64,000 bases of DNA from Verrucomicrobiota bacterium (lineage in GTDB: Bacteria > Verrucomicrobiota > Verrucomicrobiia > Limisphaerales > VHCN01): contig VHCN01000002.1 in NCBI GenBank assembly GCA_016871675.1, forward strand, positions 1 through 64,000. The letters run 5' to 3'. Below the pieces are notes generated by a model. That model was not told the DNA's origin and searched no databases. It saw only the letters and a list, made by a program, of their open reading frames with translations. Shown here piece by piece: positions 1 to 33,192 of this stretch. The translations under genes and the position numbers were made by a program. Every line of letters starts with the position of its first letter. Within the stretch, counting starts at the first letter, position 1.

Positions 1-488
1 CAGCCGTCGAGCGCGAGCAGGCCGGACTGTCCGCTGACCACGCCGCCTTGAGGCGTCGCGACGAAGTGCGTCATGCCATTCGCGCGCGCGACGGGCAGCA
101 GCTCCGAGTCGGGATTCACCGAGAGCCAGGAGCGGACTTCGGGATGATAGTCGCCCGATTCGACCATGTCGCGGCTCGCGCGGATGGCATCAATCTCGAT
201 CAGCCCGAGCGACGTGGACGACGCGATGAGGCCGGGGAACAGGTGAAGCCCCTTCAAGTCCACCGCCTTCGCGCCCGCGACTCGGATCTGCCTCGCCACC
301 GTTACAATCTTGCCGTCCCGAACGTGGACCTGCCCCGGCGCAAGCGTCTCGCCGGAAACGGTGTGAACGGACGCAGCGGAGAAGACGGTGTCGGCGCCGA
401 ACGCACCCGAGCCAGCAGCCAGGAGCGTCGCGACCGCAACCGCGGACGTCCGCCACTCCGCATTCCGCATTCCGGATTCCGCATTCAT
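1..488 (-). CDS. amidohydrolase-fold protein, partial (C-terminus outside window)
   Basis: The gene reads leftwards off the edge of the window, so only the first 162 or so codons are visible. The ATG at 488 lies 2 nt after the stop of the upstream paralogue and inside a heptamer repeat. After about 15 repeat-encoded residues comes a hydrophobic export signal ending near GAFGA, then the start of an amidohydrolase fold: a small beta domain with HTVSGETLAPG and LKGLHLFPGLIA. It is closely similar to the gene at 491-1915, sharing SPDSELLPVARANG-like and ATPQGG.VSGQSGL segments. Where active members have an HxH metal motif after PG-(L/I)-I-(D/A), this protein has SSTSLGL, so the first metal ligands are missing. 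It is probably an exported, non-canonical or inactive amidohydrolase paralogue co-transcribed with the two genes upstream. The family call is strong and the function unknown. Confidence 0.8.
   Translation of the reverse strand, partial: MNAESGMRNAEWRTSAVAVATLLAAGSGAFGADTVFSAASVHTVSGETLAPGQVHVRDGKIVTVARQIRVAGAKAVDLKGLHLFPGLIASSTSLGLIEIDAIRASRDMVESGDYHPEVRSWLSVNPDSELLPVARANGMTHFVATPQGGVVSGQSGLLALDG
454..488 (-). repeat. heptamer tandem array, CATTCCG family (five units)
   Basis: Five consecutive 7-base units of the CATTCCG type on the plus strand, the last ending in TTCAT. On the minus strand the array therefore supplies the ATG and first codons of the partial amidohydrolase gene. It begins 3 nt after the stop codon of the preceding gene. 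The same arrangement is seen at 1881-1915 and, degenerate, at 33158-33192. Confidence 0.85.
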
Positions 489-490
489 GA

Positions 491-1915
491 TCAGTTCGGC
501 TTCGGCCGGCTGTTGTAGCGCTGCCAGAGGCGCGTGTGTTTGCTGTCGAGCGGTTGCTCGACGCCCGCCAGCCACAGCCGCCGGACCTGCGCGCGCGTGT
601 CCAGCACGTCGCCGTCCATCGCGAAGAAGCTCGCCTCTTTGCCCGCGTCGATGCTCCCGAGCCGGTCCGCGACGCCGAGCGCCTCGGCGGCGTGGAGCGT
701 CATGCCCTTGAGCGCCTCGGTCGCGGGCAGGCCGAACGCCACCGCCTGCGCCGCGCGATACGGCAGGTTGCGCGCCTGCGACGCCGCGCGGCCGCCGAGC
801 CCCTCGCTGAAGATGACCTTCACGCCGGCGCGATGAAGCACGGCGGGGGCGGCGAAGTTCGCGTCGTAGGATTCCGAGTCGCGGTTCGGCAGGTCGAAGG
901 TGGATTCGTAAATGACCGCGACCTTGTTGCTCGCGAGCAGCGACGCCTCGCGCCACGCGTCGCGTCCGCCGGCGAGGATGATCCTGAACTTGTTCGTGTT
1001 CGCCCACGCGACCGCCGCGCGAATCTGGCGGAAATCATCCGCGTGCACCATCAGCGGACGTTCGCCGCGGACGAACGGAAGCATCGCCTCCCACGAAGGA
1101 TTGAGTGCGGGCGCGGCGGCAGTGTTCGCGGCCGCGGCTCGCCCCGCCTTGTCGTAGGCTCGCGCCTCGTCGAAGAAGTTTTGCAACTCCGCGAGCCTGC
1201 GCTGCCGGGCGCTCGCGCCTTCCTCCGCGGCAGGCGGGCCGCCACCGCGGCGTCCTCCGAAGCCGCCACCGCCGGCGCTCGGCCAGGCGACGTGCAGCGC
1301 GACGGGCGAGGCGACGGTCATCTCCTCCATGCCCCAGCCATTGATGCGCATGAGGCCGCTCTGTCCGCTGACCGTGCCGCCCTGCGGCGTGGCGAGAAAG
1401 TGCGTGATGCCGTTGGCCCGCGCCACGGGCAGCAGCTCGGAGTCGGGGCTGACGGACAGCCACGCGCGCACATCGGGGTTGAAGCTGCCGACCTCGCTCA
1501 TGTCGAGCGTGGCGCGGACGGAGCTGACCTCGACGAGCCCGAGCGAACTCGGCACGGCGATGAGGCCGGGATACAGGTGAAGCCCCTTGAGATCCACGAC
1601 GCGGTCGGCCTTCGCAGCGACGTTCACCGACACGGAGATGATTTTGCCGCCGCGCACCAGCACGTTGCCGGGCGCGAGCGTCTCGCCGGAGACGGTGTGA
1701 ACCGTGGCGCCGGTGAAGAGCGTGCTGGCGGCCTGGGTTGAACCGACTGAAAGAAGCAGCGCCGCGAGCACCGCGAGGGTCTGGACTGCGCCAGTCCTCG
1801 GGCGCTTTCGCGCGGGCTCCTTCAAGGAAAAGCGGCAGCGGACTGCCGCAGTCCAAAACGCTGGCGCGTCGTGCGTCCGCCATTCCGCATTCCGCATTCC
1901 GCGTTCCGCATTCAT
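491..1915 (-). CDS. amidohydrolase-fold protein lacking the HxH motif
   Basis: A 474-residue protein of the amidohydrolase superfamily, probably exported. The ATG at 1915 overlaps the stop of the upstream gene by one base (TGATG). The first 45 residues are encoded by a heptamer array and a hairpin pair. A signal-like segment follows (LAVLAALLLSVGSTQAAS), so translation could start further in, but no better start codon is evident. Family features include HTVSGETLAPGNVLVRGGKI, LKGLHLYPGLIA and a C-terminal LGVADRLGSIDAGKEASFFAMDGD typical of imidazolonepropionase-like members. The metal-binding HxH is replaced by PSSLGL, and a Gly-rich insertion (GGGGFGGRRGGGP) lies in the middle. Catalysis by the usual metal mechanism is therefore doubtful. 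Together with its two neighbours it forms a three-gene operon of related proteins. Confidence 0.85.
   Translation of the reverse strand: MNAERGMRNAEWRTHDAPAFWTAAVRCRFSLKEPARKRPRTGAVQTLAVLAALLLSVGSTQAASTLFTGATVHTVSGETLAPGNVLVRGGKIISVSVNVAAKADRVVDLKGLHLYPGLIAVPSSLGLVEVSSVRATLDMSEVGSFNPDVRAWLSVSPDSELLPVARANGITHFLATPQGGTVSGQSGLMRINGWGMEEMTVASPVALHVAWPSAGGGGFGGRRGGGPPAAEEGASARQRRLAELQNFFDEARAYDKAGRAAAANTAAAPALNPSWEAMLPFVRGERPLMVHADDFRQIRAAVAWANTNKFRIILAGGRDAWREASLLASNKVAVIYESTFDLPNRDSESYDANFAAPAVLHRAGVKVIFSEGLGGRAASQARNLPYRAAQAVAFGLPATEALKGMTLHAAEALGVADRLGSIDAGKEASFFAMDGDVLDTRAQVRRLWLAGVEQPLDSKHTRLWQRYNSRPKPN
1783..1854. repeat. paired short hairpins, possible REP-type element
   Basis: Two near-identical small palindromes, GGACTGCGCCAGTCC (1783-1797) and GGACTGCCGCAGTCC (1840-1854), bracket a 42-base segment. 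Each can form a 6-bp stem with a 3-base loop. The element lies inside the N-terminal codons of an amidohydrolase gene, next to the heptamer array at 1881-1915. The paired-palindrome form resembles bacterial REP/BIME elements; whether it is repeated elsewhere in the genome cannot be seen here. Confidence 0.6.
1881..1915 (-). repeat. heptamer tandem array, CATTCCG family (five units)
   Basis: Five 7-base units: three exact CATTCCG, one CGTTCCG and a final CATTCAT. Length and layout match the array at 454-488. On the minus strand it starts inside the stop codon of the 984-residue amidohydrolase and provides the start codon of the next gene. Confidence 0.9.
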
Positions 1916-4869
1916 CAGTGCTTCCCTCCGTGCGCGCAGTCGAGGCAGTCGTGCAGGTGGCTTTGGAACATCTCCAGCGCGGGGATGAAGAACAGCGCCT
2001 GCGCGGCTTCCGTCGCCTCGGCGCCCGCTCCGGCGCCGCCGCCGAGTTGCGCGGCCTTCTTCGCCTTCGCCACAAGGTCGTTCCGCTCCTTCGCGAGCGA
2101 GTCGGTGCGCGCGGGCACGAGCGCGCGGTCGAAGTATTTCTTCCCGTCAATCCACGTCTGCAAACACACCGTCGTCGAGTCGAGCGGGGACTTGCTCCAC
2201 ACGGCAAAGTCGGCGTCCTTGCCCGGTTCGAGCGAGCCGGTGCGCGCATCAATGCGGAGCTGCTTCGCCGGGTTGAGCGTGACGAACTTGAGCGCCTCTG
2301 TCTCGGAGGTGCCGCCGTATTTCACGGCCTTCGCCGCCTCGATGTTGAGCCGGCGCGCGAGGTCGCTCGAATCGGAGTTGAAGGACACCACCACGCCGCG
2401 GCTGTGCATGAGCGAGCCCGCGTGCGGGATGGCGTCATAGACCTCGAACTTGTAGGCCCACCAGTCGCTGAAGCACGAGCCGCCCGCGCCGTGCCGCGCG
2501 ATTTCGTCGGCGACCTTGTAGCCCTCGAGCACGTGCTGGAGCGTCGCCACGCGCACGCCGAAGCCCTCCATCGTCCGCAGGAACGCGACGATTTCATCCT
2601 GCCGGTAGCTGTGGCAATGGATGAGCCGCGTGCCGCGGATGATCTCGCCGACGGCCTCGAGCTCGAGGTCGCGGCGCGGCGCGGGCGTGCCGTTGCGGGC
2701 GGCATCGTCTTGTGCCTTGAGGTATTGCTGCGCGGCGATGAAGCGGTTCTGCATGAACGTCGGCACGCCCATGCGGGTCTGCGGGAAGCGCGTCGTGTTG
2801 CGGTCGCCCCAGTTGGATTGCTTCACGTTTTCGCCGAGCGCGAACTTGATGCCCTCGGGCGCGCCCGCGAACTTCAACGCCTCGGGACTCGCGCCGTCGC
2901 GCAGCTTGATCACGGCGTTCTGGCCGCCGATCGGATTCGCCGAGCCGTGCAGGTTGTTCGCCGTCGTCACGCCGCCGGCGAGTTGCATGTGGAGATTCGC
3001 GGTTTCCGAGTTCACCACGTCGCCGATGCGGACCATCGCGGACGACGGGAGGGTGCCCTCGTTGACGCCGCCGAGGATCATGCTGTGGCTGTGGCAATCA
3101 ATGATGCCCGGCGTGATGTGCCAGCCCTCGCCCGCGAGGATGAGCGTGTCCGGCCCGACGCGGACGCGCGCGGCGATGTTCGGGCCGACCGCCTGAATCC
3201 TCCCATCGGCCACGTAAAGGTCGGCCTTCTCGACGCGGCCGGCCGCGGCCGAAGTCCACACAGTCGCGCCGCCGATGAGCACGCCGCGCGGGGACGCGAG
3301 AGGGCCGCGGTTCTTCTGTGGCGGCTGCGCGTCGCGCTTCTTGAGCAGTTCGCGCAGCTCGGCGCCCTTCGGCGAGCCCTTCGCGCCCTTGTCGTCCTTT
3401 CCTTTTTCCGCGCCAGCGGCGGCTTTCGCGCCGGGCGGCCGGCGGCTGGCGGCGGGCGCGTTCGGCAGGTGGCGGCCGTCGATCCAAACTTCGCGCACGC
3501 GCGCGTCGGGGTTGAAGTAGCTGCCCTCGACGACGGTGAGGTTTGCGATCTTGCCGGGCTCGATCGTGCCGAGTTGCGCGTCCACGCCGCAGAGTTTCGC
3601 GGGCACGGTCGTGAGGGCCGCGAGCGCGTCGTTCTCGGACAGGCCGCGGTCCACGGCCTGTTGGAGGTTGCGGCGGAAGCTGCGCTTGTCCGCGAGGCCG
3701 TGCGTGGTGAGCGCGACTTCCTTGCCGAGCGAGCGGAGCAACGCGGGATTTTCGGGCGCCCAGTCCCACGCGCGGAGCGTGTCGAGCGAGACGCTGTGCC
3801 AGTCGTCCTCGTCGGGCATGCGCGGCGCGGCGGGCAGGTTCACCGGCACGATGAACGCCGAGTTCACGGCCTGCATCATGTCGGGCCGGCGCCATTCCTG
3901 TCCGCTCGCGACGACGTGGAAGTTCACGCCAGCCTCCGCGGCCACTCGCGCGGCGCGGTCCACCATCAACACGCTGCCGGGCTCGAACACGACGGTGGTT
4001 TTCTTCGTGATGGCGCGTTCGAGGGCTTCGAGCGCGGGGTTGAAGTCGGGGCGCTTGCGGCCCGCGGGCTTCTTCTCGTAATCGGCATGGTCGAGGAAGT
4101 AATGCCGCGCGTCGAAGAAGCTCTGCCGCACCGCGGCGATGACGCCCATGAGCGAGCCGGGGAACGGCGTCTGCGCGTTCGGGTCGGCCGGGCGGGGCGC
4201 GGACTCGAAGGCGACGTGCTGGAAGACATCGGGCTTGAGGATGGCTGTGTTGGGGTTCACGTCGCTGAGCAGGACGAATGCGCTCGTGCCGCGCAGGATG
4301 CCGCGCGCAGGCGTGGCGCTGCCGGCGGTGAAACCGACTTCGCGCAGCGACTCGAGCGCGCGCGCGTTCGGCGAATAGTCGGACGCGGCGCGCTTCTCGG
4401 GCGTGATGCGCGCGAGTTCGTAGCCGGGACCGGGATTGCCGGGGTCGCGTTCCTGGCCGGGCACGCCGAAGAAGTTGATGCCGCTCGTGAGTTCGCCGAT
4501 GGGCTCGGTCATCGTGGTGGCGACGGCGGAGACGTTCGTGCCCATCGTGAGATAGGCATCAATGAAGCCGGCGTAAATCGTCGCGCCCTTCAAGTCCCAC
4601 ACGCGCGCGTCGGCGGGCACGGCCGCATTGACGCCGACCGCCGTGATGAGCCCGTCGCGGATGATGACGTTCGCCTCGTCAAAAGTTTGTCCTGGCTTCA
4701 CAACCACCCTGCCGCCGACAAGAGCGTGCGCGCCGAGCGGCATGGGCCGATGCCCGGGCGGGAGCAAGTCGGCCGCACAAGCCGCACTCGCGGCGAGCGC
4801 GAGCAGCGAGGCGAACCGTGTCGGGGCACGGAGGCAGGTCCGGTGGAAGTGGAAACGCGCGTTTTTCAT
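1915..4869 (-). CDS. tandem double-domain amidohydrolase, exported
   Basis: A 984-residue protein with two amidohydrolase domains in one chain. The open frame extends far upstream, but the ATG at 4869 is followed by a clear signal peptide (LLALAASAACA, about residues 20-32), so that start is chosen. Domain 1 (about 40-430) has the fold signatures (VGGRVVVKPGQTFDEANVIIRDG, IEPGKIANLTVVEG), but its metal motif is degenerate: AGFIDAYLTMG instead of DxHxH. A Lys/Ala-rich linker (about 450-490) leads to domain 2, which keeps H593-S-H595 in ITPGIIDCHSHS. Domain 2 also has later candidate ligands LIHCHSY and ATLQHVLEGY, and an acidic FNSDSSD. One active and one pseudo-active domain is the simplest reading. 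The substrate is unknown, but members of this family include dipeptidases and imidazolone-propionase-like enzymes. First gene of the minus-strand operon; divergent from the gene at 5014. Confidence 0.85.
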   Translation of the reverse strand: MKNARFHFHRTCLRAPTRFASLLALAASAACAADLLPPGHRPMPLGAHALVGGRVVVKPGQTFDEANVIIRDGLITAVGVNAAVPADARVWDLKGATIYAGFIDAYLTMGTNVSAVATTMTEPIGELTSGINFFGVPGQERDPGNPGPGYELARITPEKRAASDYSPNARALESLREVGFTAGSATPARGILRGTSAFVLLSDVNPNTAILKPDVFQHVAFESAPRPADPNAQTPFPGSLMGVIAAVRQSFFDARHYFLDHADYEKKPAGRKRPDFNPALEALERAITKKTTVVFEPGSVLMVDRAARVAAEAGVNFHVVASGQEWRRPDMMQAVNSAFIVPVNLPAAPRMPDEDDWHSVSLDTLRAWDWAPENPALLRSLGKEVALTTHGLADKRSFRRNLQQAVDRGLSENDALAALTTVPAKLCGVDAQLGTIEPGKIANLTVVEGSYFNPDARVREVWIDGRHLPNAPAASRRPPGAKAAAGAEKGKDDKGAKGSPKGAELRELLKKRDAQPPQKNRGPLASPRGVLIGGATVWTSAAAGRVEKADLYVADGRIQAVGPNIAARVRVGPDTLILAGEGWHITPGIIDCHSHSMILGGVNEGTLPSSAMVRIGDVVNSETANLHMQLAGGVTTANNLHGSANPIGGQNAVIKLRDGASPEALKFAGAPEGIKFALGENVKQSNWGDRNTTRFPQTRMGVPTFMQNRFIAAQQYLKAQDDAARNGTPAPRRDLELEAVGEIIRGTRLIHCHSYRQDEIVAFLRTMEGFGVRVATLQHVLEGYKVADEIARHGAGGSCFSDWWAYKFEVYDAIPHAGSLMHSRGVVVSFNSDSSDLARRLNIEAAKAVKYGGTSETEALKFVTLNPAKQLRIDARTGSLEPGKDADFAVWSKSPLDSTTVCLQTWIDGKKYFDRALVPARTDSLAKERNDLVAKAKKAAQLGGGAGAGAEATEAAQALFFIPALEMFQSHLHDCLDCAHGGKH

Positions 4870-33157: not shown

Positions 33158-33192
33158 AATTCCGTGGTTCGCATTCCGAAGTCCACTTTCAT
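33158..33192 (-). repeat. degenerate heptamer array, CATTCCG family
   Basis: Five 7-base units, diverged from CATTCCG but ending like the other two copies in TTCAT. It overlaps the stop codon of the DUF58 gene in an ATGA, just as the arrays at 454 and 1881 sit on gene junctions. A 45-codon frame opens from its ATG (33192) and closes at 33055 inside the BatA-like gene; it looks like repeat-derived junk rather than a gene. Confidence 0.6.

Follow-up and report, generated by a model that had tools for sequence, protein, structure and literature searches.

Two tandem arrays of the heptamer CGGAATG (CATTCCG on the opposite strand) lie at the two junctions between three successive amidohydrolase genes on the minus strand of contig VHCN01000002.1, from the Verrucomicrobiota bacterium assembly GCA_016871675.1. 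The window, as we call the whole stretch analysed, covers positions 1 to 64,000 of this contig (64,000 nucleotides, nt). These arrays are likely heptameric repeats of a known bacterial class that were tolerated at gene edges and captured as the start codon and leader of the gene downstream. Judging from the sequence, capture would have occurred in one paralogue and probably in two, and it looks like ordinary repeat DNA put to use, not a purpose-built start signal. The genes follow one another as two-domain protein, gene 2 and gene 1; Pfam was run on the first two; gene 1 is a paralogue 62–64% identical to gene 2.

1915-4743, minus strand: two-domain amidohydrolase, preceding gene 2, searched against Pfam
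1925-1929, minus strand: GGAGG, Shine-Dalgarno-like, outside the repeat and 9 nt ahead of the ATG at 1915
1913-1915, minus strand: first ATG of gene 2, which shares a base with the upstream stop; second repeat ATG at 1895-1897
1874-1915, minus strand: array J2, units ATGAATG CGGAACG CGGAATG CGGAATG CGGAATG and tail GCGGACG
491-1915, minus strand: gene 2, amidohydrolase (PF01979 by Pfam), 474 amino acids
491-493, minus strand: stop TGA of gene 2, 2 nt ahead of the ATG at 488
486-488, minus strand: earliest in-frame ATG of gene 1; the other repeat ATG is at 468-470
454-488, minus strand: array J1, units ATGAATG CGGAATC CGGAATG CGGAATG CGGAGTG; the common tail extends to 447
1-488, minus strand: gene 1, amidohydrolase paralogue, cut by the edge of the window and contig

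The two arrays, first proposed in an initial annotation of the window, were confirmed to be above chance. Matches to GGAATGCGGAATG with at most two mismatches numbered 9 in the whole window, 8 of them in J1 and J2, compared to 2.04 expected and a maximum of 6 in 100 shuffles of the window; Tandem Repeats Finder scored the two arrays 53 and 60. J1 (454-488) and J2 (1881-1914) each sit inside a 42-nt block (447-488 and 1874-1915) with the consensus ATGAATG CGGAAYS CGGAATG CGGAATG CGGARTG GCGGACG, and the N-terminus MNAE.GMRNAEWRT is common to both proteins. At the J2 junction the stop TGA (1915-1917) overlaps the ATG, reading TGATG. Both arrays end in the same out-of-step tail, TGGCGGACG; nowhere else in the fetched sequence does this tail come after an array, and at a two-unit site elsewhere in the genome (C5:6983) the next sequence is TGGCGGTTC. 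Because the blocks are 92.9% identical, compared to 72% DNA identity between gene 1 and gene 2 over 380 aligned bases, and because they share this irregular tail, one array was probably copied from the other junction, or both from one source, and we therefore did not count them as two independent cases. No fixed 3' boundary was found among the arrays of this genome; a pattern designed for right array ends alone also matched array interiors.

The initial annotation had further held that the repeat supplies the start codons of both downstream genes. For gene 1 this stood. The gene is intact across contigs, since a second contig (C12) overlaps the start of the window by 177 nt with 1 mismatch and the joined frame encodes 457 amino acids. 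Between codon 64 and a GTG that lies within gene 2, 87 nt upstream, the two repeat ATGs (488 and 470) are alone among in-frame ATG, GTG and TTG codons, and an in-frame CTG lies at 422. As no other usable start was found, the sequence supports a repeat ATG as the required start of gene 1. An alternative start at ATG 484 was discarded since that frame contains stops; the correct ATG is 488-486. For gene 2 the repeat ATG is the likely start because GGAGG lies 9 nt before the first ATG, with TTG 1825 and GTG 1771, the latter selected by our own gene caller, as possible alternatives. The segment following the gene 1 array, read by eye, resembles a signal peptide (MRNAEWRTSAVAVATLLAAGSGAFGA).

A second insert separates J2 from the presumed signal peptide of gene 2:

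1778-1856, minus strand: 79-nt insert with ends GGACTGCGGCAGTCC / GGACTGGCGCAGTCC

Its ends are near-inverted copies of GGACTGC; its full length was found a single time in the genome, and partial matches lie at C60:11892-11977.

The unit itself suggests how capture could have come about. CGGAATG contains no stop codon in any frame and, since 7 is not a multiple of 3, an array of at least three units carries an ATG in every frame. For these reasons an array lying between a stop codon and the next gene could easily be read as a new start and leader. We envisage that heptamers arise or land in many places and would survive best at gene edges. Here they would have landed directly behind a stop codon, where the next gene begins or slightly inside it, and one of the two arrays would probably then have been copied to the other junction. 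The 14 added residues would precede the apparent signal peptide and hence be tolerated there.

A homologue of gene 2 was present at E ≤1e-30 in 38 of 78 sampled genomes of the order, our own genome counted. Of 29 loci from relatives, 26 had the two-domain neighbour ahead of this homologue. None of the 39 match rows to gene 2 in other genomes starts before residue 21, and 23 start at residues 47–64; the 14 repeat-derived residues are therefore not common to relatives. The junctions and leaders of the 29 loci contained no GGAATGC array, only one lone GCATTCC (L328). Other period-7 arrays were found at the same place in 4 of the 29 (L317, L319, L320 and L328) and in none of the equal-length stretches inside the gene, so the leader of gene 2 is, on this comparison, apparently a place tolerant of repeats; arrays of other periods occurred at 0 to 2 of the 29 junctions. 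Plain junctions with AAGGAGG ahead of the ATG also exist among relatives (e.g. L324).

Genome-wide tests covered 2.24 of the 3.61 megabases (Mb) of the genome. Sites were GGAATGCGGAATG-like sequences with at most two mismatches, merged, with the reversed and the shuffled pattern as controls. Genes were called with our own hexamer caller, and those of GTDB loci with a cruder composition caller; start positions are the weak point of these calls. We found 73 merged sites, compared to 12 for the reversed and 35 for the shuffled pattern (unmerged, over the whole genome, 132 versus 25). Outside genes there were 25 sites, against 5 in either control. Inside called genes there were 48 (21 with the gene, 27 against), compared to 7 and 30, and many of these may be chance matches, because 30 of the 35 shuffled-control sites also fall in genes.

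This tabulation of the place and orientation of all copies contradicted the earlier proposal that every copy sits on an operon junction in one orientation. Not only were 48 of the 73 sites inside called genes, but those between co-directional genes ran 9 with the genes and 13 against (hand count, n=22), so that the common orientation holds within the window only. A third array had also been claimed there:

33158-33192, minus strand: claimed array after the DUF58 stop (33189-33191), indistinguishable from chance

Its position, 4 nt past the DUF58 stop, was correct. The array itself was not confirmed: it amounts to a single 13-mer match with 2 mismatches, of which about 2 are expected per window, and no in-frame start of the next gene was found within it. 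Twelve with-gene sites precede a gene on the same strand. In 4 of them (J1, J2 and sites on C6 and C29) the array contains an in-frame open ATG ahead of the called start, and 2 others, both weak, hold the called start itself. An in-frame open ATG was present in all four multi-unit, same-orientation arrays before a same-strand gene, as the CGGAATG unit predicts; alternative starts were examined closely for the two window genes.

Although the proposed rule failed, placement was not random. In the 2.24 Mb there were 70 tandem arrays of period 7. Periods 8, 10 and 11 yielded 18, 9 and 6, and period 14, being twice 7, yielded 35. Periods 6, 9 and 12 gave 46, 36 and 40 arrays, of which 7, 5 and 8 were outside genes. 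Period 7 is thus over-represented relative to periods that are not multiples of 3, as in bacterial heptameric simple repeats, and its arrays comprise many different units. By our own caller, 38 of the 70 lie outside genes, which occupy 89% of the sequence. With every unit considered together, 21 of 36 intergenic period-7 arrays were at most 10 nt from a gene edge, compared to a null mean of 12.7 when moved within their spacer (p 0.0005) and 6.2 when placed in any spacer. Near starts there were 16, against 9.5 in the same-spacer null (p 0.004). Arrays that leave at most 25 nt of spacer on either side were not in excess (6 versus 6.9).

A second regularity concerned the strand: of the two ends of the GGAATG strand, it is mostly the 5' one that lies nearer a gene. 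This was the case at 18 of 24 sites in our genome (18:6, hand count) and for 34 of 43 intergenic arrays with both flanks called in GTDB loci (34:9, p 0.00017), the GTDB statistics resting on a non-random sample of 80 of at least 119 stretches. In three repeat-rich genomes picked for their many arrays (G123, G274 and G283) the ratio was 15 of 17 (15:2, p 0.002). Within the GTDB set, 13 of 26 5' ends followed a stop by at most 10 nt and 4 of 25 were at most 10 nt from a start; the corresponding counts for the 3' end were 2 of 18 and 2 of 25. For all heptamer units of our genome, oriented by the G-richer (G>C) strand, the ratio was 24:10 (p 0.024), or 27:15 at a looser threshold (p 0.088). A purine-rich-strand form of the rule failed (20:16), and polarity was not significant for periods 6, 8, 9 and 14, period 14 coming nearest (23:11, p 0.058). 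Polarity was 21:3 for AAAGTTC, a unit without any GG, 12:3 for GCCGATT, 12:3 for CAGTGTT, 12:4 for GGATTGC and 8:3 for GGCCGAT, and was not significant for GCCGGTT (11:7); the orientation of AAAGTTC and CAGTGTT was set after viewing some arrays and the unit families overlap, which makes the p-values optimistic. GGCCGAT (52 versus 30 sites) and GCCGGTT (56 versus 31) were moderately above their reversed controls, and GGCGCGT, no commoner than its control (247 versus 246), was uninformative. Part of the proximity to stops is due simply to first units (e.g. CTGAATG, ATGAATT and TTAATG) in which a TGA or TAA ends a gene running into the array. The opposite strand at starts might, at a guess, reflect avoidance of GGA-rich, Shine-Dalgarno-like sequence just ahead of starts.

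Of 387 genomes sampled from the phylum, 14, our own among them, carry exact three-unit arrays, with no control match; the GTDB collection has at least 119 stretches with such arrays. Labels among the 80 stretches listed include Planctomycetota, Acidobacteria, Gemmatimonadetes, Verrucomicrobia, Chloroflexi, Bacteroidetes, Desulfobacterales, Microbulbifer and Streptomyces, and isolates are included. Several other observations were made on these arrays. First, one genome (G283; L373-L383) holds CGGAATG arrays of up to 36 units, and where ends were inspected several of them begin with GAATTAT- or GAATGCT-like units and finish with GAATGCG-like ones, as if units shift along the strand. Second, one array (L226:4003-4030) lies inside a called gene, perhaps as an in-frame insertion; the flanks resemble ybeY. 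Third, some arrays (L166, L171, L228 and L234) have AATTCGG at their left border and CGGAATT at their right one, which may be a pair of fixed ends.

Several points weigh against repeats that were tolerated and then captured. The ATG at 1915 may be an ancestral start with the array placed directly after it; several relatives begin ATGAA, and the repeat origin of this first ATG is therefore uncertain. The sampled relatives belong to other families of the order, so they do not date the insertion. Near starts the excess of arrays (p 0.004) came without a clear excess near stops (11 versus 8.6, p 0.14), and this start-side excess could point to a role before starts. Lastly, neutrality would leave the strand polarity unexplained.

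A role before starts is what would be expected if the arrays were RNA or DNA regulatory sites for a binding factor, as proposed for TAACTGA repeats, the overlap with start codons being a by-product. The placement near gene edges, chiefly starts, and the strand polarity agree with this, as do the GAACTTT arrays of our genome, which look like tandem −35 boxes. Nineteen listed GAACTTT arrays lie in sense close before starts, with array ends located from −9 to 53 nt ahead of the start (e.g. C10:13375-13401, C11:18861-18892 and C22:13579-13610). TTGAAC is strand-biased 20–49 nt upstream of starts (50 versus 16 for the reverse complement), and TANNNT follows TTGAAC (63 sites) 5 times at 17–18 nt and 5 times at 24–25 nt, compared to about 0.5 expected per spacing. 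We nevertheless consider regulatory sites an unlikely explanation, given the many unrelated units and the restriction of exact three-unit arrays to just 14 of the 387 genomes. In the 1178 upstream regions of our genome, TANNNT peaks 10–19 nt before starts (129, versus 22–57 per 10-nt bin at 20–99 nt) and TTGAC occurs at 30–39 nt in 37 cases versus 7 for its reverse complement, which suggests that many mRNA leaders are very short or absent.

That the heptamer is a selected translation-start module, self-contained and frame-proof, is quite improbable. Its GGA sits 7 nt before the ATG of the next unit, ATG occurs in all frames, and gene 1 has no other usable start; against this, arrays between co-directional genes oppose the genes as often as they follow them (13 versus 9), the 3' end of the array is at most 10 nt from a start in 2 of 25 GTDB cases, and the GGAGG of gene 2 is outside the repeat. 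Phase variation, in which 7-nt slippage of a tandem unit not divisible by 3, placed where genes start, would toggle downstream genes on and off, is the least probable, as ATG in every frame without stops makes the start insensitive to copy number, the units are imperfect, and such switching was judged unlikely for Xanthomonas and Nostoc heptamers by the authors who described them (PMC4692102).

Repeat capture, as we read it here, would provide a clean case of a repeat absorbed into a gene as start and leader, and annotators should note that MRNAEC-type N-termini can be repeat DNA. A wider and more doubtful proposal is that polar heptamers form a cross-phylum class under one strand rule that does not need a three-layer G-quadruplex, the unit setting which signal is donated (starts by CGGAATG, −35 boxes by GAACTTT). 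If so, gene edges would be places where repeats repeatedly supply new starts and promoters.

In the open-licence literature, a search for the exact repeats or their peptides matched a single paper, on Ohno's hypothesis, and one for heptameric repeats in Verrucomicrobia matched none; we saw no paper there on the CGGAATG unit. Our best reading is that it is a previously undescribed unit of the known class of bacterial heptamer repeats seen in Xanthomonas, cyanobacteria, Geobacter and Beggiatoaceae. The heptamers of Calothrix cyanobacteria are named STRR. They too are tandem, with several units per genome, in another phylum and with other units than CGGAATG (mentioned in PMC4692102). Also among the closest are the GGGAATC/GGGANTN repeats of two Xanthomonas and the GGGGA(C/T)T repeats of Nostoc, reported in 2015 with the same polarity rule: those near a stop are on the coding strand and those near a start on the non-coding strand, and some overlap stops (PMC4692102). 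CGGAATG shares with them the 7-nt length, G-rich strand, heterogeneous units, intergenic excess and a G-rich-strand 5' end nearer the open reading frame whatever its direction. It differs in a larger in-gene share (31 of 84 GTDB arrays by the crude caller, compared to 7–11% in the two Xanthomonas, PMC4692102), in an ATG able to serve as a start, and in having GG runs only, short of the three or more G required for three-layer quadruplexes and allowing at most two-layer ones. The placement rule would thus extend to further phyla and to units without long G-runs, which weakens the quadruplex explanation. TAACTGA of Beggiatoaceae likewise occurs as direct 7-nt repeats where two genes meet, in some cases across the preceding stop, with a patchy spread over phyla; all its forward frames contain stops, and the Guaymas strain has it mostly just ahead of the start codon (MacGregor 2015, PMC4679880), whereas CGGAATG is stop-free, can contain the start and, in the GTDB loci, rarely ends within 10 nt of one. 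In Geobacter metallireducens, GGGACCG repeated four times at 49 places is a different unit and is interpreted as regulatory elements, yet like CGGAATG it forms tandem heptamers both within and between genes (PMC2700814).

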